Program-made: the position numbers and the translations under genes
The notes under the pieces: model-generated
Database searches by the model: none
Told to the model about the DNA's origin: nothing
The model's input: only the letters and a program-made list of their open reading frames with translations
Source: a virus
Length of the DNA stretch: 35,926 bases
Direction: 5' to 3' (one strand)
Virus record (IMG/VR): IMGVR_UViG_3300031801_000005
Span: 1-35,926 of that record
In this document: piece by piece, positions 6,725 through 30,081 of the stretch
Layout of the letters: each line of letters starts with the position of its first letter
Position numbering within the stretch: the first letter of the stretch is position 1

Positions 6725-8368
6725 TTAATATCCAAAATCAGGATCGACTGGTTTGTAAATTGATTCTTTTTTAAGTTCTCTAATTCGTTCAAGTGGGTTT
6801 GATGCGCGTGGTCTACTCATAATGAGATAGCGTAAAGCATCGTATGCATGGTCAGATGCATTCGTGTCTACGTCTTCGGGTTTTGTCTTACTTAGTGGAA
6901 TACTCTGAAGTTCTCGAATCAAGTTAGGACATGTGTTTAATATTTGTAATTGAGGTCTCCCATTATTCCGAACTCTAAGGTATTCGTGTATTTGGATTTT
7001 ACCCTGTATTCTATTTTTGTCTGCTCGTCTGAGCTTGTGGCCAAGTTGTTGAAGTGTCTCACCAACTGTAGGACCAGTTGTTCCTGTTCTTGCCCAAGCA
7101 GCCGTATCTAAGACTCCTTGTACAGAGAAAGGATCTTCTATCTCCATTTCTGTTATTATACGACCTAAATCGAGTCCTGTCAAGTTTTTTCTGTATAGTT
7201 CTCTATAAATTACTAATGTTCCATCACTTCTATCAACTGCTCCCCACAAACAACAACTCTCTGAGGCATACCCATAATCTATCCCTTTGACTCGTTCCCA
7301 TACAGAAGGAATATAAAAAGGTTCAATAATATGAAGATCTGGATCAAACTCAACAAAAGCAGCACCTTCCGCTACATCCCAATTACCATCAAGAAGCTGT
7401 TTTCTCTGAACTGGCGGAAGTGCTTTAAGCATTTCTTCGTATCTACCGTCTAGAGCAAGATAAGGATTATCGTCTAATCTGGCTGGTATAAACTTCCTAG
7501 AAAGTCCGTCTTTACCAATAAAAGAAGTATTAGGATCTACAGGATTTACATACCTTTTTTTAACCCATTGCGCACCTACTCCACCTGGGTTTGCAGTACA
7601 ACGAAGATAAGTTTCTATGCTTGAGTCTGTTGTTCGAAGCCTAGAAGCTAGATAATTCCAGCCGAACTCTGTAGGTAAATGAGTAATTTCATCAAATCCT
7701 ATCCAAGAATATGCTTGTCCTTGATAACGATAAACATCTGCATCCCTCTCAAGGAAGCCAAACTCTATCTTAGCTCCACTAGGAAAGTTCCATAGCTTTT
7801 CGACTTCTCTGAATTTACATCCTGGAAAAGCTTGAGGATAAAGTTCACGAGATTTATCAATTAGTTCTCGTAACTCAGGCATAGATCTTCTTAAAATTAA
7901 TGCTCTATGCGCTTTTTTATGCGCATAACGTAACGGATCAACTAACATCGCGTAAGATTTTCCGCCTCCTGCAGCTCCGCCATAAAGAACATCTCGTTCT
8001 GGTGCGGCTAAGAATTCTGTCTGTGGACCTTCATTAGGATGGAAGACTATGTTGTCTTGGTCTATCTGGTCTTGTACTGTAGGAGGAAGAGATTCTAGTT
8101 CTGAATCGATAACAACTTGATTATCTGTTTTCTTGTCAAGCTTTTTTAATACTTTTTTCTGTGTTTTTAAAGTTGTCTTTTGTGACTTTATTTCATTTCT
8201 TAATTTGGCAATTCTTTTTTCTTTTGTTTTAACAGATCGCCTAGCACTCATCTTTGCTTTAGTTTTTGAGTGATAACTATAATTACTTTTAGATCCTTTA
8301 GGCCTTCCTTTTTTCTTTTTAGGAGCTGAAGTTGCTGAGTTGTTCTTGTCTGTCTTGTCTTGTTCCAT
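6725..8368 (-). CDS. terL: Terminase large subunit
   Basis: A 547-residue DNA-packaging motor. The first 80 residues are Lys-rich and likely flexible. An ATPase follows: Walker A GGAAGGGKS at about 130-138 and Walker B WIGFDE at 222-227 with the catalytic Glu next to Asp. The C-terminal RNase H-like nuclease has Asp364 in Lys-Gly-Ile-Asp-Tyr-Gly, Asp421 in Val-Leu-Asp-Thr, and Asp506/Asp510 in the DHAYDALRY stretch. These are the acidic residues expected of headful or cos cleaving enzymes. Start ATG at 8368 overlaps the upstream gene by 50 bases. The portal follows after five bases. Complete and apparently functional. Confidence 0.97.
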   Translation of the reverse strand: MEQDKTDKNNSATSAPKKKKGRPKGSKSNYSYHSKTKAKMSARRSVKTKEKRIAKLRNEIKSQKTTLKTQKKVLKKLDKKTDNQVVIDSELESLPPTVQDQIDQDNIVFHPNEGPQTEFLAAPERDVLYGGAAGGGKSYAMLVDPLRYAHKKAHRALILRRSMPELRELIDKSRELYPQAFPGCKFREVEKLWNFPSGAKIEFGFLERDADVYRYQGQAYSWIGFDEITHLPTEFGWNYLASRLRTTDSSIETYLRCTANPGGVGAQWVKKRYVNPVDPNTSFIGKDGLSRKFIPARLDDNPYLALDGRYEEMLKALPPVQRKQLLDGNWDVAEGAAFVEFDPDLHIIEPFYIPSVWERVKGIDYGYASESCCLWGAVDRSDGTLVIYRELYRKNLTGLDLGRIITEMEIEDPFSVQGVLDTAAWARTGTTGPTVGETLQQLGHKLRRADKNRIQGKIQIHEYLRVRNNGRPQLQILNTCPNLIRELQSIPLSKTKPEDVDTNASDHAYDALRYLIMSRPRASNPLERIRELKKESIYKPVDPDFGY

Positions 8369-8613: not shown

Positions 8614-8931
8614 TTAAGAAAAACTACTTCCACAACCACAAGTTGCTTTAACATCTGGATTATTAAGTTTAAAAGCTGAACTAAACGCTGATTCTATATA
8701 ATCTATTTCTACATTTTCTAGATAGGCATAACTAACAAAATCTACACATAAGCTGAGTCCATCTGATGCTTTAGTAATATGATCATCTTCTTCAACTTCA
8801 TCAGCAGGTTGAACTCCAAATCTATATTGAAAGCCATTACAACCGCCACCTTCGACAGCCAACCTGACTATCTCAGAAGGTTTAACAACCTCTTTGAGTT
8901 TTTTTATTGCATTATCTGTTATACTTATCAT
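8614..8931 (-). CDS. A-type iron-sulfur carrier (IscA/HesB family)
   Basis: A full-length 105-residue A-type carrier that would bind and hand over Fe-S clusters in the cytoplasm. The three signature cysteines are present: Cys31 in Gly-Gly-Gly-Cys-Asn-Gly-Phe-Gln-Tyr, and Cys98 and Cys100 in the terminal Cys-Gly-Cys-Gly motif. The sequence runs from an N-terminal Ile-Thr-Asp-Asn-Ala-Ile-Lys-Lys-Leu helix through the typical beta sandwich. HesB/IscA-like genes are known in marine phages. Possible clients here are the radical SAM protein and, less surely, the Cys-bearing exonuclease. Start ATG at 8931 overlaps the upstream lipoprotein stop by four bases. Confidence 0.95.
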   Translation of the reverse strand: MISITDNAIKKLKEVVKPSEIVRLAVEGGGCNGFQYRFGVQPADEVEEDDHITKASDGLSLCVDFVSYAYLENVEIDYIESAFSSAFKLNNPDVKATCGCGSSFS

Positions 8932-9426: not shown

Positions 9427-10155
9427 TTAATTAATAAACTTAACATTGTGTAGTCTGCGCCTCAATCTCGAAATTCTTTTTTTTGTTTTATTTCCTAAAC
9501 ATTCTACTATTTCTTTTTCTTCTTTCGGTAATCCTTCAGTAAAAGGAAGGAGTTTATCAAAACAATATGCATATGTTTCTATTACCGAAATATCTTTACT
9601 GTCTAATACACCAAGATAATTATAAATACAAGCTTGTTCACCCAATACTCCGTATGTTAAAGCATCACAAGCATTGATTGTTTGTTCTTCAAATATAATA
9701 TCATTTCTATGGTTCATATATCTAGGCATATATAATAACTTACTATTATTTAATAGGCCTGTATCACTCTCAGGAATCTCATCCCACATTGCAGGATTTA
9801 TAATAAAGAGTGAAAGATCAATCATTCCTCTGTGCATCTTTCTGGATGTAAGCTCATAGTGTTTAAAAATACTAGGATGATCTGCATAAACTGCTTCTCT
9901 ACTTACACCTAAATGATACTTTTTTAATTTCTCTCTAGAAGGTAAGTCTCCTTCTTTTATATTTAATACTAATCCACTTTTAACAACAAGAGTTATATCA
10001 TCTATATTCTTTAAAGCTGTTCCTATTTTACTTTCACTTGGCTCAACTACCTTATACTCGTAGCCAGTCATGTTAGCTTCTATTGAATTAGTTGTTAGCC
10101 TTGTTAGATTATTCGTTTCCAGTATTAAGAGTTTTAGGTTTTTTTGGTTTGACAT
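9427..10155 (-). CDS. Surface-modification-type protein, unknown fold
   Basis: A 242-residue protein overlapping the upstream 314-residue gene by 47 bases. It opens like a Rossmann-type sugar-nucleotide enzyme (Leu-Lys-Leu-Leu-Ile-Leu-Glu-Thr-Asn-Asn, residues 7-16), with a Leu-Val-Val-Lys-Ser-Gly-Leu-Val-Leu-Asn segment near 55-64 that could be the beta strand before a nucleotide-sugar site. There is no clean DxD. The C-terminal 30 residues are basic (Lys-Lys-Arg-Ile-Ser-Arg-Leu-Arg-Arg-Arg). I read it as a divergent glycosyltransferase-like protein on the strength of this and its neighbour, with low certainty. Confidence 0.4.
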   Translation of the reverse strand: MSNQKNLKLLILETNNLTRLTTNSIEANMTGYEYKVVEPSESKIGTALKNIDDITLVVKSGLVLNIKEGDLPSREKLKKYHLGVSREAVYADHPSIFKHYELTSRKMHRGMIDLSLFIINPAMWDEIPESDTGLLNNSKLLYMPRYMNHRNDIIFEEQTINACDALTYGVLGEQACIYNYLGVLDSKDISVIETYAYCFDKLLPFTEGLPKEEKEIVECLGNKTKKRISRLRRRLHNVKFIN

Positions 10156-11244: not shown

Positions 11245-11425
11245 CTAATCCATTGCCTTCCTTAAATTTATCTTGTAACCATTCTTCATTTTTTGTAAAA
11301 TATATTTCGAAGTTTGCGTAAGGTGTTTGTCCATGATGAAAGCGTTCATAACAGTTTTCTTCATATAAATACCTACAAAACCGTACAAAATCTCTATCAG
11401 CTGCCACCTTCGTTCTCCCAGCCAT
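11222..11425 (-). CDS. Small aromatic-rich protein, unknown
   Basis: A 67-residue protein with Arg-Asp-Phe-Val-Arg-Phe-Cys-Arg-Tyr-Leu-Tyr-Glu-Glu-Asn-Cys-Tyr-Glu-Arg near its start, then Tyr-Ala-Asn-Phe-Glu-Ile-Tyr. It overlaps the terminase small subunit stop by 29 bases, suggesting coupling. I have a general impression of similar genes in marine phages but no function. Start ATG at 11425. Confidence 0.55.
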   Translation of the reverse strand: MAGRTKVAADRDFVRFCRYLYEENCYERFHHGQTPYANFEIYFTKNEEWLQDKFKEGNGLDGSRERN

Positions 11426-11846
11426 CTAGTTCTTCATGATCTATGACTGTTACCTCCTTTTCTATTTTAGCAGGTAGTATAAAGACTCCACCAGAATAAT
11501 TGTGATTAACATCCAATCTTTCTTTCTTTGTTACACCTACTCTATCCAGAATGGCCGTTGCCGCTTGTAGTTTGTTAACTATTTGAGGTATAGGTTTGTT
11601 TGTTTTCATTATTTCAACTAGTTTGAACGCTGCTTCAGGTGCGCTATTAGCTAAAACATTGGTAGCCAGGTCTATTATCTCTTCCTTGAGAGAAGATATT
11701 ACTTGATAATGGTTGCCACTATAACCCGCAAGTGTTGCCGCTTGTTTCGGATCTCCATTTGTAGCTATAAGACAATCCAAAAACTTCTGTTGCTTCTCAG
11801 TTAGAGTTCTTGATTTGTTTTTCGTTGTTAAATAAGTATTTACCAT
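11397..11846 (-). CDS. terS: Terminase small subunit
   Basis: A 149-residue DNA-recognition subunit. The N-terminal half carries Leu-Thr-Glu-Lys-Gln-Gln-Lys-Phe-Leu-Asp-Cys-Leu, then Gly-Asp-Pro-Lys-Gln-Ala-Ala-Thr-Leu-Ala-Gly-Tyr, a helix-turn-helix signature of the Terminase_2 family. An earlier in-frame start at 11885 is unlikely because it lies inside the -35 box of the promoter that drives this gene; ATG at 11846 has GG one base upstream and is the likely start. This is the first gene of the leftward late block and is followed by five small or surface genes before terL, an unusual separation. Confidence 0.85.
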   Translation of the reverse strand: MVNTYLTTKNKSRTLTEKQQKFLDCLIATNGDPKQAATLAGYSGNHYQVISSLKEEIIDLATNVLANSAPEAAFKLVEIMKTNKPIPQIVNKLQAATAILDRVGVTKKERLDVNHNYSGGVFILPAKIEKEVTVIDHEELDGWENEGGS

Positions 11847-11857
11847 CCTATATATAC

Positions 11858-11885
11858 AGTATAGACTGGTTAACAGGTTTGTCAA
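11858..11885 (-). promoter_or_regulatory. Sigma70-type promoter for leftward late block
   Basis: On the minus strand TTGACA (11885-11880), a 16-base spacer and TATACT (11863-11858) form a near-consensus host promoter. Its expected start is about 11851, only five or so bases before the terminase small subunit ATG at 11846. The DNA just upstream, 11886-11918, is an A/T tract that could act as UP element for both this and the rightward promoter. Confidence 0.85.
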
Positions 11886-11918
11886 GTCTTTTTTTTAAAA
11901 AAAAAAGGTAAATAATGC

Positions 11919-11947
11919 TTGACAAATGCTACCATCACCTATATACT
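11919..11947 (+). promoter_or_regulatory. Sigma70-type promoter, rightward
   Basis: TTGACA at 11919-11924, a 17-base spacer and TATACT at 11942-11947 give a near-consensus host promoter reading rightward, start about 11954. It is back to back with the leftward promoter; the T8A10 tract between them (part of 11886-11918) may boost both. It reads into the origin region and a 35-codon ORF. The first larger gene starts about 590 bases later. Confidence 0.85.
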
Positions 11948-12006
11948 GGAGTAACACACCCCGTAACACTAGCTGCCTATTTCTGGTAGCTCTTTGCTCC
12001 TATGTA

Positions 12007-12024
12007 TTTTACAAATTTTACAAA
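12007..12024. repeat. Tandem 9-mer TTTTACAAA x2
   Basis: Two exact tandem copies of TTTTACAAA (12007-12015, 12016-12024), and one inverted copy (TTTGTAAAA) at 12289-12297. They flank the DnaA-box cluster at both sides, like short iterons or protein-binding sites at an origin. Confidence 0.6.
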
Positions 12025-12043
12025 TTTACCCAAGGAGATCATA

Positions 12044-12151
12044 ATGAGGGCAGATTTCAGATCTGGTAAACCTTTGAAAATTAGTAAAAATGTGCGATCA
12101 CTACATATTATATACCTAGGCCCCCTAGTCCACCTGCCTCCCCGCCTCTGA
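12044..12151 (+). CDS. Tiny basic protein, 35 codons, strong ribosome binding site
   Basis: ATG at 12044 sits six bases after a near-ideal AAGGAG (12032-12037). The product would be 35 residues, basic in the N-terminal half (Arg-Ser-Gly-Lys-Pro-Leu-Lys-Ile-Ser-Lys) and Pro/Leu-rich at its end. The strong promoter at 11919-11947 reads into it after about 90 bases. Early phage proteins of this size often act on host processes, but nothing in the sequence says which. It could also be a chance frame in an otherwise non-coding origin region. Confidence 0.4.
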   Translation: MRADFRSGKPLKISKNVRSLHIIYLGPLVHLPPRL

Positions 12152-12166
12152 CAGTACACCAGGAAC

Positions 12167-12241
12167 TTATCCACAAGTAATTCACAGGATATCCACAGCT
12201 TGTACACAGGCCAGACATCATTTATCCACAAGTAATTCACA
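12167..12241. repeat. 20-base direct repeat containing a DnaA box
   Basis: TTATCCACAAGTAATTCACA occurs exactly at 12167-12186 and 12222-12241, 55 bases apart start to start, about five helical turns. The copies thus face the same side of the helix, which favours cooperative binding. The second half, TAATTCACA, is itself a loose version of the DnaA box. Confidence 0.85.
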
Positions 12242-12273
12242 ATATTTGACAAGTTGTTAACAGTTTGTCCACA
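12167..12273. other. Putative replication origin: DnaA-box cluster
   Basis: Two exact consensus DnaA boxes TTATCCACA lie at 12167-12175 and 12222-12230. Near-matches are ATATCCACA at 12189-12197, TTGTACACA at 12200-12208 and TTGTCCACA at 12265-12273. All five are in the same orientation within 107 bases. The cluster borders the AT-rich region at 12280-12539 and lies at the point where the leftward and rightward gene blocks diverge. Together these features are typical of DnaA-dependent origins, although no initiator gene is seen in the window. Function as origin is inferred. Confidence 0.65.
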
Positions 12274-12279
12274 TTCTTT

Positions 12280-12539
12280 TTGTACAAATTTGTAAAATTT
12301 TAAAATATTTTTAAATTTGACAAGTATTAACATTTATGCTAGGCATTTATAAATTTTTAAAAACTGGTAAATTCAAAATGATAGTTTTTCATGCATTAAG
12401 CTATCGTAATAAGATTTTAAAAGATTTAAACAATTTCAACTATTTATATAATATTTGTATAAATGTCTTGACTTCCTTTTGAAATATCTATAGTCTTCAA
12501 TATATGGATTTAATTTTAATAAATAAACAAGGATATATT
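12280..12539. other. AT-rich unwinding-type region and early leader
   Basis: The stretch is almost entirely A and T, with homopolymer runs and a 12-base palindrome TACAAATTTGTA at 12283-12294. It is where one would expect strand opening next to the DnaA boxes. It contains no ORF worth calling. A TTGACA at 12316-12321 lacks a good -10. A weaker promoter lies at 12468-12494. Confidence 0.5.
12468..12494 (+). promoter_or_regulatory. Possible early promoter before first rightward gene
   Basis: TTGACT at 12468-12473 and TATAGT at 12489-12494 are separated by 15 bases, a little short. The expected start near 12501 is about 40 bases before the first gene, with AAGGA about ten bases ahead of its ATG. 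Confidence 0.4.
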
Positions 12540-12641
12540 ATGGAATATGATAACGATTTAGACGATGTAATTGAATTACCTACTGAGTCATTAGAGGACT
12601 ATTTAAAACGTACTGAGAATGATGAGGAGGATATAACATGA
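12540..12641 (+). CDS. Tiny acidic protein, 33 codons
   Basis: ATG at 12540 is preceded by AAGGA and follows a possible promoter. The 33-residue product is strongly acidic (twelve or more Asp/Glu, few basic residues). The stop overlaps the next start (ATGA at 12638-12641), so the two form one unit. Acidic tiny proteins in this first-gene position are common as DNA mimics or host-takeover factors in phages, but that is only a thought. No family is recognised. Confidence 0.65.
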   Translation: MEYDNDLDDVIELPTESLEDYLKRTENDEEDIT

Positions 12642-17732: not shown

Positions 17733-18125
17733 ATGGCTACAGTAAGTGGAAAAGCTATGTGGGCAAGTGTAACAACTCCACAAACAAGATTTGAGCCTCA
17801 CAACTATACAATTACTTTGTTGGTTGATGAGGAAATAGCATCAGAGTTCGCATCAGAAGGTTTCGCAGTCAGGGAAACAGATGATGGTAAAGTTCTTGTA
17901 ATGAAGAGACGTTACCAAAGGAACGATGGAGCAATTAACCCTGTTCCTATATGTGTTGATAAAGATAAAGAACCTTTTACTGATCGAATTGGAAACGGTT
18001 CTGAAGTTGTTGTTCAATACAGAGGATACGAAAATCAGTTCGGTAAGTTTATAGAACTTCAAGGAGTTCAAGTTTTGGAACTTGTAGAGTATGAACCTTT
18101 GCCTGATGATGGCGAGGAATTTTAA
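17733..18125 (+). CDS. ssDNA-binding protein (T7 gp2.5-like)
   Basis: A 130-residue protein before the primase-helicase. The first 100 residues are beta-rich, with hydrophobic and aromatic residues (Ala-Met-Trp-Ala-Ser-Val, Val-Val-Val-Gln-Tyr-Arg-Gly-Tyr) suitable for an OB-type fold. The C-terminus is acidic (Glu-Pro-Leu-Pro-Asp-Asp-Gly-Glu-Glu-Phe), typical of ssDNA-binding proteins that recruit polymerase or helicase by an acidic tail ending in Phe. The acidic end plus position make this the likely protein, although no invariant motif exists. Start ATG 17733 behind promoter C. Confidence 0.75.
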   Translation: MATVSGKAMWASVTTPQTRFEPHNYTITLLVDEEIASEFASEGFAVRETDDGKVLVMKRRYQRNDGAINPVPICVDKDKEPFTDRIGNGSEVVVQYRGYENQFGKFIELQGVQVLELVEYEPLPDDGEEF

Positions 18126-18361: not shown

Positions 18362-18492
18362 CGAGTAATTTAAAATTTTCCTGATTGGTTTATCTGTTCC
18401 AAGATAAGCCTCTGGTAAGAAGTACCAATGGTCAGGGTGGATGGTAAACTTCGGTTGGAGGGTAGGTCAAAGGTAGATCATTGGAGCAAACG
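18362..18492 (+). promoter_or_regulatory. Leader with two hairpins before primase-helicase
   Basis: The gap holds an inverted repeat TTATCT-GTTCCA-AGATAA at 18390-18407 and TGGTA-AGAAG-TACCA at 18413-18427. GGATGGTAAACT at 18439-18450 resembles the extended -10 of promoters A-C but has no good -35. GGAG at 18483-18486 is the ribosome binding site for the ATG at 18493. Confidence 0.4.
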
Positions 18493-20163
18493 ATGCAAGT
18501 AAAAAGAAAGAAAGGTTTTGTACAAAAACATTTGGAATGTCCTTCATGTGGACATAAGAAATGTTACGCAATAAACGCAGATGGTTCTGGCTGGTGTTTC
18601 AGTTGCAATTATCGTGGACAACATGAAAAGGGAGTAGCTCTCGTGCCTGATAAACAGACAACTCAATTTACTTCAAACACTTCTGTTGATGCATCAACTT
18701 ATTCAGCATTAACAGATAGGAAAATATCTGAGGCAACTGCTCGTAAGTATGGAGTGAAGGTTGTTACTTCTACTGATGGAACAATATTTCAGCACAAGTA
18801 TCCTTACTACGATGATAATGGCGAGAGAGTTTCTACAAAAACAAGACAAGTAAAGAGCAAGAAGTTTTCTTGGGAAGGAACACAAAAAGATATAGGTTTG
18901 TTCGGTGAACAGTTATTCAAGAAAGGAAAATATTTAACTATTACTGAGGGTGAGTGTGATGCAATGTCTGCTTACGAATTAATGGGAAGTAGATGGTCGG
19001 TAGTTTCCATAAGACACGGTGCAGGCAACGCAGAACAAGACATCAAGGACAGTCTTGAGTTCGTAGAAGGATTTGACAATGTTGTTATTTGTTTTGATAA
19101 CGACAAGCAAGGGAGAAAAGCATCACAGAAAGTAGCTAGGTTATTAAGACCAGGAAAAGCAAAAATAATGCGACTTCCTGATGGGTTTAAAGATTCAAAC
19201 GATATGCTCAAGGCAAATGAACACAAAAAATTTGTGACATGTTTTTGGGGAGCAAAGACTTATACACCGACAGGAGTGTTGAATATTTCTGAGAAACGAA
19301 AGCAGTTTCATAACAGGGAAAAGAGAGATACTATTCCATTTCCGTGGGAAGGTTTGAACAAAAAGTTATATGGACTACAGACAGGAAGCTTACTAACTTT
19401 TACAGGTGGCACAGGTTTAGGTAAGTCTAGTGTTACTCGTGAGATAGAACATTGGCTTATTAAACAAACAAAAGACAACGTAGGTGTTATATCTCTAGAA
19501 GAAGATTGGAGAAGAACGGTAGATGGTATTCTATCTATCGAGGCTAATGCAAGGTTGTATATAGATCAAGTAAGAGATGAGTATTCTGAAGAAGAGCTAG
19601 ATGGTTTTTTTGATATACTGACTGATGATAGTGATGAAAATAAATTATGGATTCATGCGCATTTCGGAACAAGCGACATAGAGGAAATATTTTCTAAGCT
19701 TAGATTTATGATTATAGGATGTAATTGCAGATGGATTATCATAGATCACTTACATATGTTGGTTAGCTCAATAACAGAAGGTGATGAACGTAGAGCTATT
19801 GATGCGATCATGACTAGATTAAGAAGTATTGTTGAAGAAACTGGAGCAGGTTTGATTCTAGTATCTCATCTAAGAAGAGTTATGGGTAATAAAGGACACG
19901 AAGACGGCATTCAAGTTAATCTAAGCCATTTAAGAGGTAGTCAAGGCATAGCACAACTAAGCGATTGTGTTATAGCTTTAGAACGTAATCAACAATCAGA
20001 TGATCCAGAAGAAGCGAACACTACAGTATTACGAGTTTTGAAATCTAGGTACACAGGTGACGTAGGATATGCAACAAGTTTATTCTATGATAAGCATACT
20101 GGCCGCCTGTCTGAGCTTGAATTAGATTCTTTTGAAAAAGATGTGGAGTCAGCATGGACTTAG
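18493..20163 (+). CDS. DNA primase-helicase (T7 gp4-like)
   Basis: ATG 18493 with GGAG just ahead is preferred over the in-frame TTG at 18481. The 556-residue protein has an N-terminal zinc ribbon with Cys16, Cys19, Cys35 and Cys38, a TOPRIM primase with Thr-Glu-Gly-Glu-Cys-Asp at about 151-156 and Asp-Asn-Asp at 202-204, and a RecA-type helicase with Walker A GGTGLGKS at 305-312 and Walker B ending in Asp418 (Ile-Ile-Ile-Asp-His). It is complete and matches the bifunctional T7 enzyme. The stop overlaps the polymerase start by ten bases, so the two are coupled. Confidence 0.97.
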   Translation: MQVKRKKGFVQKHLECPSCGHKKCYAINADGSGWCFSCNYRGQHEKGVALVPDKQTTQFTSNTSVDASTYSALTDRKISEATARKYGVKVVTSTDGTIFQHKYPYYDDNGERVSTKTRQVKSKKFSWEGTQKDIGLFGEQLFKKGKYLTITEGECDAMSAYELMGSRWSVVSIRHGAGNAEQDIKDSLEFVEGFDNVVICFDNDKQGRKASQKVARLLRPGKAKIMRLPDGFKDSNDMLKANEHKKFVTCFWGAKTYTPTGVLNISEKRKQFHNREKRDTIPFPWEGLNKKLYGLQTGSLLTFTGGTGLGKSSVTREIEHWLIKQTKDNVGVISLEEDWRRTVDGILSIEANARLYIDQVRDEYSEEELDGFFDILTDDSDENKLWIHAHFGTSDIEEIFSKLRFMIIGCNCRWIIIDHLHMLVSSITEGDERRAIDAIMTRLRSIVEETGAGLILVSHLRRVMGNKGHEDGIQVNLSHLRGSQGIAQLSDCVIALERNQQSDDPEEANTTVLRVLKSRYTGDVGYATSLFYDKHTGRLSELELDSFEKDVESAWT

Positions 20164-21905
20164 TATTTGATATAGAAACTGACGATTTAAAAGCCACGAA
20201 AGTGCATTGTATGGTAGCTCAAGATTATGACTCTGGCAAAATTTATATGTTTGCTCCTCACCAGTTAGAGTCTGGTCTTGAGTTACTTCAAAAAGCAGAC
20301 AGATTAATAGGACACAACATAATAGGCTTTGATGTTCCTGTTATCAAAAAATTGTACGGTGTAGATCTGTCTGATAAAGAACTTGTAGATACACTTATCA
20401 TGTCAAGATTATTTAATCCTGTTCGTGAAGGTGGACATAGTTTAGAAATGTGGGGATATCGTTTGAAATATCCTAAGAAAGATTTTGATGAGTATGAAAA
20501 GTATTCAAGTAAAATGTTGGACTACTGTAGAAGGGATGTCCAATTAAATTCTCTGGTATTAAGAGAACTAAAGAAAGAAGGACTTGGTTTTTCTAAAGAA
20601 AGTGTACAGCTTGAACAAGAAGTGTCTTTGATATTGAAAGAACAAGAAGATACTGGTTTCCTGTTTGATGCATACAAATCCGAAATATTGTTAGCAGAAC
20701 TAAGAGAGAAAATGCAAGCAACGGAAGACGAAGTTCACCAAGTTTTTAAACCTAGAAAAGTATTTGAAAAAATTATGCCGTCTTATAGGAAAGATGGTAC
20801 GCTTTCTAAACTAGGAGTTAGTGAAACAACAAACAAAAAAGTACATCTGCTTGGTTCAGAGTATATGTTATTAAAAAACGGAACACCTCATTTTGTTAGA
20901 ACACATGAAGAAGAATTTAATCTTGGTTCAAGGAAACAAATAGGAGAATACCTACAAGACTTCGGATGGAAACCTGCACGATTTACACCAACAGGTCAGC
21001 CTATTATAGACGAAGGAACTTTAAATAAAGTTAAGCATATACCAGAGGCAAAATTGATAGCTGAGTTTTTGCTGCTTCAGAAAAGGGTAGCACAGATAAG
21101 TTCTTGGACAGAAGCTGTAGAAGAAGATGGTAGAATTCACGGTTTCGTAATATCAACAGGAACTATAACAGGAAGAATGTCAGCAAGGAGTCCAAACTTA
21201 CAACAAGTTCCTTCTGTTAAGAGTCCATACGGTGCAGAATGCAGATCTTGTTGGATTGTACCAAAGGATTATAAGTTAGTTGGAATAGATGCAAGCGGTT
21301 TAGAATTAAGAATGCTTGCACATTATATGAAAGACAAGGAGTTTATAAATGAAATCGTTAATGGAGACATACATGCCCGCAATCAAAAAATTGCAGGGCT
21401 TAAATCTAGAAGTCAAAGCAAAAGCATTATCTATGCAATCATCTACGGAGCAGGAAACAAAAAGCTTGGTCAAATGGTCGGAGGAAGTACAGCTCGTGGT
21501 AAAAAACTTCGAGAACGCTTGTTTGCTGATCAACCAGCATTTAAATCGCTTGGAGATAGAGTTACACAAGTTGCAAAAAGAGGCTACGTTAAAGGACTCG
21601 ATGGAAGACGGATTAATATAAGAAGAAACTATGCATCTTTGAATAGTTTGTTACAGGGAGCAGGAGCTACAATCATGAAAAAAGCATTGCTCTTGTTATA
21701 TAAAAACGGAAAGAAAAGAAATTTAGATTTTAAATTTGTTGCCAACATTCATGATGAGTGGCAAGTAGAAGTGCATACTGCACATGCCGAATACTTTGGT
21801 AAGCTTGGTGTAGAAGCAATCAAAGAAGCAGGCACTTTTTATAACCTTCGGTGTCCTTTAGATGCTGAATACAAAATAGGAGATAGTTGGAATGATACCC
21901 ACTAA
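20154..21905 (+). CDS. DNA polymerase I family (T7-like)
   Basis: A 583-residue family A polymerase with proofreading. Exo motifs: Asp6 and Glu8 (DIETDD), Asn55 to Asp60, Tyr124 and Asp128. Polymerase motif A is Asp379 in Asp-Ala-Ser-Gly-Leu-Glu-Leu-Arg; the O-helix has Arg419, Lys423, Tyr427 and Tyr431-Gly432; motif C is His533-Asp534-Glu535. The O-helix position equivalent to E. coli 762 is Tyr427, as in T7, usually linked to lytic phages. It is shorter than T7 (704). No thioredoxin loop is obvious. The start codon lies within the primase gene. Confidence 0.97.
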   Translation: MDLVFDIETDDLKATKVHCMVAQDYDSGKIYMFAPHQLESGLELLQKADRLIGHNIIGFDVPVIKKLYGVDLSDKELVDTLIMSRLFNPVREGGHSLEMWGYRLKYPKKDFDEYEKYSSKMLDYCRRDVQLNSLVLRELKKEGLGFSKESVQLEQEVSLILKEQEDTGFLFDAYKSEILLAELREKMQATEDEVHQVFKPRKVFEKIMPSYRKDGTLSKLGVSETTNKKVHLLGSEYMLLKNGTPHFVRTHEEEFNLGSRKQIGEYLQDFGWKPARFTPTGQPIIDEGTLNKVKHIPEAKLIAEFLLLQKRVAQISSWTEAVEEDGRIHGFVISTGTITGRMSARSPNLQQVPSVKSPYGAECRSCWIVPKDYKLVGIDASGLELRMLAHYMKDKEFINEIVNGDIHARNQKIAGLKSRSQSKSIIYAIIYGAGNKKLGQMVGGSTARGKKLRERLFADQPAFKSLGDRVTQVAKRGYVKGLDGRRINIRRNYASLNSLLQGAGATIMKKALLLLYKNGKKRNLDFKFVANIHDEWQVEVHTAHAEYFGKLGVEAIKEAGTFYNLRCPLDAEYKIGDSWNDTH

Positions 21906-26984: not shown

Positions 26985-27664
26985 AAATATTTATTGGTTA
27001 CGAAGAAGAATATCCTGAAGCATATGAAGTATGTAAGGCTTCTATCGAAAGATTTAATAAAACACATCAGATTGTGCCTTTAATAAAAAAGAATCTAATT
27101 AAAGAGGGATTATACGATAGACCAGTTGCAGGCGAGAACACAGACTTTGCTTTTACTAGATTCCTGGTTCCTTATCTTTGTGATTACAAAGGCTATGCTT
27201 TATTTTGTGATGGAGATTTTTTGTGGAGAAGTGATCCAGAAGAACTTAGATCTTTTGAAGATGATGAGTACGCTATCCATGTTGTTAAACATCCGCAACT
27301 AATAACATCTAAACATATGAAAATGAATACACATGTGAATAGACCTTATGAAAAAAAATATTGGTCTAGTTTAATGTATATGGATTGCACCGAGTCAGAA
27401 GTATTGACTGTTGACTATGTTAATACTGCAAAAGCTTCTGATTTACATAGTTTTAAATGGTTGCCTGAAGATATAGTAATAGGAGAACTACCTGTTACTT
27501 ATAATATGCTAGTGGGATATTATCATCTACCTGATCCAAAAGCAGTACATTTTACAGACGGAGGCCCATGGTTAGAAGGGTATGAGAATGTTGAGTATGC
27601 TGGCGAGTGGAATCAAGTTAACAGGCAAAAACCAATAAAAAATTTTGGAGGCGGAGTATTCTAA
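26981..27664 (+). CDS. GT8-like glycosyltransferase
   Basis: A 227-residue GT-A type transferase. The divalent-metal motif is Cys-Asp77-Gly-Asp79-Phe after hydrophobic Tyr-Ala-Leu-Phe, and His190 (Val-His-Phe-Thr-Asp-Gly-Gly-Pro-Trp) is where GT8 enzymes carry their second metal ligand. It would use a nucleotide sugar to modify a glycan, protein or DNA-linked group; the acceptor cannot be read. First gene of a five-gene cassette. Starts inside the previous stop. Confidence 0.75.
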   Translation: MKIFIGYEEEYPEAYEVCKASIERFNKTHQIVPLIKKNLIKEGLYDRPVAGENTDFAFTRFLVPYLCDYKGYALFCDGDFLWRSDPEELRSFEDDEYAIHVVKHPQLITSKHMKMNTHVNRPYEKKYWSSLMYMDCTESEVLTVDYVNTAKASDLHSFKWLPEDIVIGELPVTYNMLVGYYHLPDPKAVHFTDGGPWLEGYENVEYAGEWNQVNRQKPIKNFGGGVF

Positions 27665-27665
27665 C

Positions 27666-28082
27666 ATGAAAGTTAAGTGGGATAGGTTTTATTATAAACC
27701 CTTACCTGATTGTCTTACTATAAAAGAAAGTACAATAAAGGGAGCAGGACTAGGTATGTTTGCTACTAAAGATATAGAAAGAAAGTATGACTTTGGTACT
27801 TCACATATAAAAGTACCGCCTATTGTAGGCTACATAAGAACTCCTATAGGTGGGTTTGTAAATCATTCAAAAAAATCAAATACTATTATCATACAACTTT
27901 CCGATTGGGATGATTATAAAATTTTTAATTTAATCGCAACAGGTAACATACATAAAGGGCAAGAACTATTTCTTAATTATGATGATGGTGATAGCAGAGA
28001 GATGTCTAAGCTATATGTAAATGGTGATAAGGAAAAAGAATCTAGGGAATATGATGTTCAAGTGGCAATAGATGCAGACTAA
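27666..28082 (+). CDS. SET-domain lysine methyltransferase-like protein
   Basis: The start is ATG at 27666 with GGCGGAG just before; an earlier in-frame start lies inside the GT8 gene. The 138-residue protein keeps SET features: Lys-Gly-Ala-Gly-Leu-Gly-Met-Phe-Ala (about 25-33, SAM binding), Asn-His-Ser at 66-68 and Glu-Leu-Phe-Leu-Asn-Tyr-Asp-Asp (100-107) with the catalytic Tyr. SET enzymes methylate Lys in proteins, so a target in the virion or host is expected. Compact phage version; substrate unknown. Confidence 0.8.
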   Translation: MKVKWDRFYYKPLPDCLTIKESTIKGAGLGMFATKDIERKYDFGTSHIKVPPIVGYIRTPIGGFVNHSKKSNTIIIQLSDWDDYKIFNLIATGNIHKGQELFLNYDDGDSREMSKLYVNGDKEKESREYDVQVAIDAD

Positions 28083-28950
28083 TAATAAAGACAGCTTTCT
28101 TGAGCATAGAAAAAACCAAGAGTCTAAACATTTTAGTGGTAAAGAAACTTTATCGCCATTAGATTCAATACTTACTGTAGAAATAAACACTACAGAACTT
28201 TGTAATCGAACCTGTTTCTTCTGTCCTAGACACGATCCAAAAGTATTTCCTAATCGTAATCTACATATGTCACCTAAAGGTGCAAGAACTATAGCCAAAG
28301 AATTAAATCGTAATGGATATAAAGGAAAGATTTCTTTTAGTGGTTTTGGTGAGAACTTTCTTAATCCATTATTTCATAGGATTATCTTTCATTTTAATCT
28401 ATACCTTCCTGATGCTACACTTGAATGTAATACTAATGGTGATAGACTTACATCAGAATATGCTAGATTATTATTTGATAGTGGACTAGACTTACTGTAC
28501 ATTAATTTATATGATGGCATGGAACAGATAGAACATTTTGATTCTATTATGAGTTATTTTCCAAAAGAAAAATATAAATACAGAGCGCACTACAACGAAG
28601 AAGACTACGGACTATTCTTAAATAATCGTAGTGGCACTATAGACTGGCTGGGTATTGATGATAGTAATGTAGAAGAGTTGAAGGGAAAGCCTTGTTTCTA
28701 TCCTTTCTATAAAATGTTTGTAGATTGGAATGGTGATGTGTTGTTTTGTTCAAACGATTGGGGAAGAGAACATGTCATAGGTAACTTAATGCAACAGACA
28801 TTACATGAGGTATGGTTCAGTAAGCCTATGAAAAAGATACGCGCTAGACTAGCAAAAGGAGATAGAAGTAAATCACCTTGCAACAAGTGTAGTGTTAATG
28901 GACAATTATTCGGAGAGCAGTCATTCAATCTGATACAAAATATAAAGTAA
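28072..28950 (+). CDS. Radical SAM/SPASM protein
   Basis: A 292-residue enzyme. Cys44, Cys48 and Cys51 form the CxxxCxxC motif (Glu-Leu-Cys-Asn-Arg-Thr-Cys-Phe-Phe-Cys) that binds the SAM-cleaving 4Fe-4S cluster. The C-terminal half has Cys208, Cys226, Cys270 and Cys273, a SPASM-type set for auxiliary Fe-S. Such proteins often modify peptides or sugar-linked groups. Here it lies between a SET protein and an SDR-like protein. It overlaps the SET gene by 11 bases. The encoded IscA may feed it. Confidence 0.92.
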   Translation: MQTNNKDSFLEHRKNQESKHFSGKETLSPLDSILTVEINTTELCNRTCFFCPRHDPKVFPNRNLHMSPKGARTIAKELNRNGYKGKISFSGFGENFLNPLFHRIIFHFNLYLPDATLECNTNGDRLTSEYARLLFDSGLDLLYINLYDGMEQIEHFDSIMSYFPKEKYKYRAHYNEEDYGLFLNNRSGTIDWLGIDDSNVEELKGKPCFYPFYKMFVDWNGDVLFCSNDWGREHVIGNLMQQTLHEVWFSKPMKKIRARLAKGDRSKSPCNKCSVNGQLFGEQSFNLIQNIK

Positions 28951-29423
28951 TAATAACAGGCACGTATGGATTAGCCAAGTATATTGGTGATTATTATGGT
29001 GCAACGAATTTAGAATCTGCTGATAATGCAGACATATTTATAAACTGTGAGCATATCGGCTTTCAACAAGTAAGATTATTTGACAGGTTCTTTAACTTAT
29101 GGAAAGACGATAAAGATAAATATATAATAAATATATCTTCAAGAGCTGCACAACCTAATATATCTAAAGGCTTTTTGTATGCATCAGAAAAGGCCGCATT
29201 GAATCATTACACAAACAATACAGTATATAATTCAGATAAGCTTTGTCGTGTTACTACATTAAATCTAGGTTTGATGGCACATAAAACATTGCCTAGTGTG
29301 TCTTATCAGGATGTTTTAGATACTATTAACTGGCTAATAGAATCTTCTTTGGAAATACCTGACATTACTGTTCAACACAGAGCCAACTATCGAAAGGTGC
29401 AGGATGATAAATCCAATTTATAA
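28923..29423 (+). CDS. Short SDR-like oxidoreductase, non-ATG start
   Basis: The frame reads Val-Ile-Ile-Thr-Gly-Thr-Tyr-Gly-Leu-Ala (a TGxxxGxA nucleotide site), an Asn-Cys-Glu-His segment, then Ile-Ser-Ser-Arg and Tyr-Ala-Ser-Glu-Lys, the Tyr-x3-Lys of SDR catalysis. It is only 166 residues, short of the usual 230-250. No ATG, GTG or TTG exists before the nucleotide motif; ATT at 28923 has GGAG at 28912-28915 and is the best start. A later TTG at 29175 would remove the cofactor site. A -1 shift from the radical SAM frame is an alternative. The product probably pairs with the neighbouring sugar genes. Confidence 0.7.
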   Translation: MQSDTKYKVIITGTYGLAKYIGDYYGATNLESADNADIFINCEHIGFQQVRLFDRFFNLWKDDKDKYIINISSRAAQPNISKGFLYASEKAALNHYTNNTVYNSDKLCRVTTLNLGLMAHKTLPSVSYQDVLDTINWLIESSLEIPDITVQHRANYRKVQDDKSNL

Positions 29424-30081
29424 AGAAATAAGCGGAAAGAATATTATATTGGTGGGTAACTCCGTTGAAATTCTAGAATATGATTACGGAGATATTATTG
29501 AAACTTACGATGTTGTTGTAAGGTTTGGAAGAGGAGTACCTACACCAGAGCTGGTGAAGTCGATTGGAAAACGAACAGACATTTGGATAACAGGCTTGTT
29601 ACGTCAGAAATATGCAAGGTTTTTTCCTAAAGCTTTTAAATTATTCAATCGTAATAGAATATATATAGATAAAGAGCTACCAAAAGATAGACTACCTGAT
29701 TTTGAATATATGGAAATGTTTTCAGACAAGGAACTGCTTGAAATGTACAAGGAATTTGGCTATGTTGATGGTGACAAGTATGAAAAACGACCATCAGCAG
29801 GCTTTCTAGCTCTTCTTTATTTTACTAAGGTAGCTAATGATTGGAAAAGTTTAACTCTTATAGGCTTTGATTTCTTTGCTAAGACGTATGACTATAAGAT
29901 AGGCGGTGCAAAACCTACGAGTTGGCATAAGCCAAAGGCTTTAATTAATCAACATCCTCACAATCCCTCTATAGAAAGAGATCATGCTTTAAAGTTAGAA
30001 AGTGATAGTATTATTAAGTGGATAAAGCTTTCAGATTTCACAACGGAAGATATATATTCATTTCAACATTCTTCTCGTTAA
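29404..30081 (+). CDS. GT29-like (sialyltransferase-type) glycosyltransferase
   Basis: A 225-residue protein with GT29 sialylmotif features. An L-type segment lies at about 12-42 (Ile-Leu-Val-Gly-Asn-Ser, then Tyr-Asp-Val-Val-Val-Arg-Phe-Gly), an S-type at about 129-155 (Arg-Pro-Ser-Ala-Gly-Phe-Leu-Ala-Leu, then Leu-Ile-Gly-Phe-Asp), a His184-Pro-His186 and a VS-like His194-x4-Glu199. GT29 transfers CMP-sialic acid-type sugars, but marine viral versions may use other donors. ATG 29404 overlaps the SDR stop. It ends exactly where the leftward block starts. Confidence 0.8.
   Translation: MINPIYKEISGKNIILVGNSVEILEYDYGDIIETYDVVVRFGRGVPTPELVKSIGKRTDIWITGLLRQKYARFFPKAFKLFNRNRIYIDKELPKDRLPDFEYMEMFSDKELLEMYKEFGYVDGDKYEKRPSAGFLALLYFTKVANDWKSLTLIGFDFFAKTYDYKIGGAKPTSWHKPKALINQHPHNPSIERDHALKLESDSIIKWIKLSDFTTEDIYSFQHSSR

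Follow-up and report, generated by a model that had tools for sequence, protein, structure and literature searches.

A phased array of DnaA-like boxes, present in some phages and missing from close relatives, at the start of the early arm of a marine virus with a T7-like replisome

The window analysed here, a linear IMG/VR virus record of 35,926 bp from a marine bacterial virus, is divided into a leftward arm of terminase, portal and capsid genes and a rightward arm of early and replication genes. The two arms diverge from an intergenic region at 11886-12637, within which lies an array of DnaA-like boxes. The terminase small subunit (11397..11885, minus strand; phrog_51, E=5.5e-8) is the left neighbor of this region, and the first rightward early gene starts at 12638 on the plus strand. 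Farther along the plus strand are genes for a gp2.5-like single-strand DNA-binding protein (17733..18125; phrog_112), a T7 gp4-like DNA primase/helicase (18481..20163; phrog_239, E=5e-175) and a family A DNA polymerase (20154..21905; phrog_17, E=6e-148); the T7-like replisome proposed in the initial annotation was thereby recovered as a gp4/polymerase set from phrog matches. Two host-type promoters were recognized in the sequence, a sigma-70 promoter of the form TTGACA-16-TATACT (11858..11885, minus strand) for the leftward terminase and structural operon and a TTGACA-17-TATACT promoter (11919..11947, plus strand) for the rightward early operon, and such a divergent pair is present in relatives too. 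Judging from these positions, the array would fall within the long leader of the early-operon promoter.

A T7-type RNA polymerase (PF00940) was absent from 27 records and two isolates under a search that detected its positive controls; that is, it was found neither in the window, which is a fragment, nor in long relatives or the isolates. Initiation primed by a phage RNA polymerase is therefore unlikely in this family, and to that extent the contrast with T7 drawn in the initial annotation was supported. In addition, no DnaB/DnaC loading system was identified in the window, a phage-encoded DnaA was not found in these phages when sought as Bac_DnaA_C, and no Rfam family matched the window at the gathering threshold. 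Cumulative GC skew, which had been proposed as a check on the origin, does reach its minimum at the array region, but because genes also change strand there this minimum is not independent evidence of an origin and was set aside. Elsewhere in the window, clustered genes at 27645-28082, 28072-28950 and 29404-30081 carry a SET domain, a radical SAM/SPASM domain and a weak GT29 (sialyltransferase-like) match, and an A-type Fe-S cluster biosynthesis protein (PF01521) is encoded at 8614-8931, within the packaging arm.

The array proper spans 12167-12273 and comprises seven plus-strand boxes that match TTATNCACA with at most one mismatch, starting at 12167, 12178, 12189, 12200, 12222, 12233 and 12265. 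The first six (12167..12241) keep an 11-bp register, with offsets of 0, 11, 22, 33, 55 and 66 bp relative to box 1, and read TTATCCACA (12167), TAATTCACA (12178), ATATCCACA (12189), TTGTACACA (12200), TTATCCACA (12222) and TAATTCACA (12233), followed by an outlying seventh box, TTGTCCACA, at 12265..12273. The initial annotation had listed five such 9-mers in one orientation across 12007-12297; the cluster is thus richer than described and its bounds narrower. Its observation that two exact boxes lie within an exact 20-base direct repeat proved accurate: the TTATCCACA boxes at 12167 and 12222, the only exact boxes in the window, each open a copy of TTATCCACAAGTAATTCACA, and the copies are 55 bp apart. 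This 20-mer has two exact matches in IMG/VR, on unrelated contigs and in one copy each. Chance clustering of the boxes was ruled out by shuffling, as neither 300 dinucleotide shuffles of the window nor 3000 shuffles of the intergenic region gave more than four same-strand boxes per 110 bp, compared with the seven found in 107 bp of real sequence. The adjoining AT-rich DNA was also confirmed, extending 3′ of the array from ~12260 to ~12560 at mostly 74-88% AT, and is a possible unwinding element. The TTTTACAAA-type 9-mers said to bracket the array are present, at 12007-12027 and 12286-12298, but only the left copy is conserved. It lies within TTTTACAAATTTTACAAATTT (12007..12027, plus strand), which is identical in two relatives, G002 and L009, while the imperfect inverted partner on the right (13-nt exact inverted match, 12286-12298) is not conserved in G002.

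Comparison with these two relatives revealed which parts of the array are kept. G002 carries the same array, and its gp4 is 97% identical to that of the window while the intergenic DNA has diverged by 16%. Of the 54 bases in boxes 1-6, 3 differ between the two records, compared with 9 of the 21 bases in the intervening spacers (Fisher p=3e-4), and none of the 24 CACA bases of the boxes has changed. Box 4 accounts for two changes, both of them toward TTATCCACA; the outlying box 7 is not conserved in G002. In L009, whose gp4 is 83-85% identical, four boxes within one mismatch of TTATCCACA occur at the same place in a different arrangement, which argues that the 9-mers are kept and not the exact DNA. 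In the gp4 tree the window groups with G002 and L009 (gp4 identity 83-97%), and all three members of this clade have an array. The array is real, and the far smaller change in its boxes than in the spacers, with the CACA bases intact, indicates that its 9-mers are under purifying selection. A separate segment at 12351-12425 (plus strand) shows the lowest divergence from G002 of any 75 bp in the intergenic region (2.7%, against the mean of 16%); short inverted arms, GATAG/CTATC, lie within it, and it may act as a leader RNA or as a binding element for protein.

Outside this clade the picture is different, for the array is not conserved along with the replication module. Among 63 homologous regions, a set with several near copies and some short regions, at least three boxes occur in six and zero to two in 57, and box presence requires at least four gains or losses on the TerL tree. 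For example, the sister phages G009 (L030) and G020 (L267) have eight boxes and none, respectively. Their DNA is 96.9% identical through the terminase and promoters, homology ends exactly at the G/C tract of the conserved core described below and resumes some kilobases rightward, and the SSB-gp4-polymerase DNA is 92.7% identical (gp4, 94.7%); both contigs are fragments, so that the absence in G020 applies to its fragment. Similarly, scans of whole records revealed no phased box pair in 13 IMG/VR relatives (20.8-55.7 kb, most ~50 kb) or in the pelagiphage isolates HTVC103P and HTVC115P. AT-rich DNA occurs at the locus in relatives with or without boxes. The initial annotation had held that loss of the boxes from close relatives with intact gene order would speak against an origin, and that is largely what was found, in most relatives of the same gene order and in the sister with the 94.7% identical gp4. 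The array is missing from sister viruses whose replication genes are almost the same, and so resembles an optional accessory, one that recruits or sequesters DnaA, and not the sole replication origin of the virus.

The element that is shared across the family is instead a core that occurs with or without boxes and on whose early side the array sits. In most relatives it consists of CTRGTWWAC, ~41 bp, TATATATA, a G- or C-tract and CCTGCC. The TATATA-G/C tract-CCTGC portion lies at 12109..12137 in the window and was delimited from the homologous regions and the L030/L267 junction. CTRGTWWAC was observed 66 times in 67 homologous regions, where 5.1 copies are expected. Its only two copies in the whole window are both in this region, on the plus strand: CTGGTTAAC at 11866..11874 and CTGGTAAAC at 12063..12071, the latter ~41-46 bp 5′ of the core. 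The tract flips strand (G versus C) between related phages (regions including L017, L219, L216, L234, L239 and L261), and a version of the core is recognizable by eye in HTVC103P and HTVC115P. Since the core adjoins the terminase small subunit and coincides with the exact recombination junction of L030/L267, it is a candidate genome end, packaging site (cos/pac) or origin; contig ends, scanned as a test for a cos site, showed no clear clustering at the core. To the right of it, other repeated motifs are seen in the box-less relatives L017, L219, L248, L263, L267 and L270, such as CTTGACAAG four times in L263 and CTCTCTGTA seven times in L248, as if the early arm bore interchangeable repeat modules. 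A TAG-rich triplet repeat of ~70 bp between the terminase small subunit and the core of L009 (2100-2175) resembles DnaA-trio repeats and is probably a microsatellite.

Scans of IMG/VR for phased or clustered boxes revealed at least 77 clusters with four or more boxes, two of them exact. Among the matches listed, box spacings in these 77 clusters have maxima at 11-12, 21-22 and 33 bp, with ~90% of boxes in a common orientation, and the spacing peaks persist in the 43 listed clusters that were not selected for 11-bp spacing. A T7-like gp4 accompanies 7 of the 77 listed clusters as compared to 0 of 120 control contigs, one of which has an array, and listed arrays in other phages reach ten exact boxes. 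No general AT-rich or common C-rich context was seen beside the 77 listed clusters, whose composition is notable only for slightly more C upstream. Exact TTATCCACA boxes turn up in phages that are unrelated and infect different hosts, and are missing from nearer relatives. Box variants in Streptomyces and Arthrobacter phages were considered as a test of DnaA specificity and proved uninformative, as the matches came from the TTATCCACA query itself. Cultured phages provide further examples. In the Klebsiella autographivirus FBKp16 eight same-strand boxes are clustered, six of them exact, and the Berlinviruses P483, nasanit and Shigella phage A7 have arrays of six to nine same-strand boxes over ~130 bp, which in A7 are found at both record ends, in both terminal copies. 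The FBKp16 and Berlinvirus arrays are located in noncoding DNA, either terminal or intergenic, with differing promoter arrangements, and no exact box is present in the Berlinvirus relatives P151 and PhiV-1.

How does this array compare with known systems? Phage T7 has a primase-helicase and a polymerase of the same class as the window. Its primary origin, which is primed by T7 RNA polymerase transcription, differs from the window array, and T7 has a single, isolated exact box (at 8255) and no cluster. The Berlinviruses (Studiervirinae) resemble the window in having both a T7-like replisome and an optional array, with other DNA at that place in close relatives; unlike the window family, where none was seen, they encode a T7-type RNA polymerase. 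Phage T5 shares with the window DnaA-like boxes in noncoding DNA of the first-entering region of a lytic phage, there the terminal repeat with its injection stop signal. Four same-strand boxes, one exact, lie at 9437-9518 within the annotated iss, and DnaA boxes are among the listed features of this signal, for which a role in staged entry is proposed (PMC13250531). T5 nevertheless has fewer exact boxes, belongs to another phage family with another replisome, and the role proposed for its signal is injection control. The array also resembles E. coli oriC in its high-affinity and then weaker boxes, its single orientation and its adjoining AT-rich DNA, and at oriC low-affinity arrays beside the high-affinity nucleation boxes R1 and R4 guide DnaA oligomers (PMC4285127). 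It differs from oriC in belonging to a phage with a T7-like replisome, in being optional between sisters and in having no DnaB/DnaC loading system identified alongside it. DnaA boxes in lytic phages are therefore already known, from T5 (PMC13250531) and from software prediction, with Ori-Finder, in a Pseudomonas phage (PMC11512268), so that such clusters have precedents; T7-like Berlinviruses, moreover, carry arrays alongside a phage RNA polymerase. Within the open literature searched, no account turned up of DnaA arrays in podoviruses or pelagiphages, or of phased, recurrent, swappable arrays with T7-type replisomes, which would be a new variant.

Taken at the level of sequence, the selection on the boxes and their phasing suggest that DnaA binds them as an ordered oligomer, in the way described for oriC (PMC4285127). 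We therefore favor, at a probability of roughly 0.4, a reading in which the array serves host DnaA as a platform, is an optional module placed where the early arm begins, and assists initiation. Host DnaA would bind the entering phage DNA, nucleate on the two exact boxes, spread along the weaker phased boxes as at a bacterial oriC, and help to open the AT-rich DNA to the right, where the gp4 helicase, the gp2.5-like protein and the polymerase might assemble. A family in which no T7-type RNA polymerase was seen would need some other opening step, which could come from host promoters or from DnaA. The box density beyond that of any shuffle, the conservation of boxes over spacers relative to G002, the array kept in the window, G002 and L009, the spacing, orientation and gp4 association (7/77 versus 0/120) in unrelated listed contigs, the oriC precedent for low-affinity arrays (PMC4285127) and the negative search for a T7-type RNA polymerase in long relatives and isolates all favor this reading. 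Against it stand G020, the repeated gains or losses on the TerL tree, the 13 long relatives and two isolates without a phased pair, the occurrence of AT-rich DNA with or without boxes in the family, the lack of a general AT-rich flank to the arrays listed in other phages, and the Berlinviruses that have arrays despite a phage RNA polymerase. Since sister phages do without it, the array would assist initiation, or serve as one of several start sites, and its optional presence argues against an indispensable origin. What survives of the initially proposed DnaA-used origin is a non-random, phased, one-stranded array under purifying selection; that the array is the origin of this phage type is not supported.

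The main competitor is a DnaA decoy, in which an array in the first-entering DNA, amplified as the phage replicates, would sequester host DnaA, halting initiation on the host chromosome and leaving nucleotides and replication resources to the phage. We regard this as unlikely, though it is the strongest of the rivals. It would explain an optional module gained repeatedly at the same place, the lack of a general AT-rich linkage among the arrays listed and the terminal position in a Berlinvirus, Shigella phage A7, which has the array in both terminal copies, and there is support from E. coli for titration of DnaA by boxes on the chromosome (PMC12371093). Yet a sponge would need neither strict same-strand 11-bp phasing nor weak boxes, and because each window genome has only two exact boxes few sites would be added early in infection. 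Considerably less probable is control of the early leader, by which DnaA bound ~220-330 bp downstream of the rightward promoter would obstruct or regulate early transcription; the position of the array between that promoter (11919-11947) and the gene at 12638 suits such a role, and the Berlinvirus and FBKp16 arrays, with their other promoter arrangements, speak against it.

Rather improbable too, and slightly more so, is a function at the DNA end, with boxes and core acting together in packaging or staged DNA entry as proposed for T5. The core beside the terminase small subunit, the exact junction of shared and unshared arms in L030/L267, the array at both ends of the A7 record and the boxes listed in the T5 signal (PMC13250531) are consistent with it, but most relatives keep the core without boxes. 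We give least credence to iterons for a phage-encoded initiator whose site merely resembles a DnaA box. Different repeats do occur at the same place in other relatives, but TTATCCACA itself is found in unrelated phages of different hosts and not in nearer relatives, and Bac_DnaA_C was not found in these phages. The sequence data would thus rank DnaA-assisted opening above decoy, early-leader control, DNA-end or entry function and look-alike iterons, in that order.

A broader proposal, that lytic phages with T7-type replisomes widely carry an exchangeable DnaA-filament cassette at their leading end, through which DNA is opened by the host initiator for a phage helicase that loads itself, is doubtful, with odds only a little better than those of the decoy. 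If true, such a cassette would constitute a hybrid mode of initiation that can be gained or swapped without a change of replisome. Either way, helically phased arrays are found repeatedly in lytic phages with a replisome that supposedly needs no host initiator, and their behavior is that of swappable modules. Whether the host initiator is recruited or disarmed is directly testable in sister phages with and without an array, including Berlinviruses of E. coli. Among the Berlinvirus records L509, L510, L511 and L514, for example, the otherwise similar P151 keeps both flanks but has unrelated DNA in place of the ~120-bp DnaA-box cassette, so that array-bearing Berlinviruses and P151 can be compared, as nature provides them, on E. 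coli hosts.
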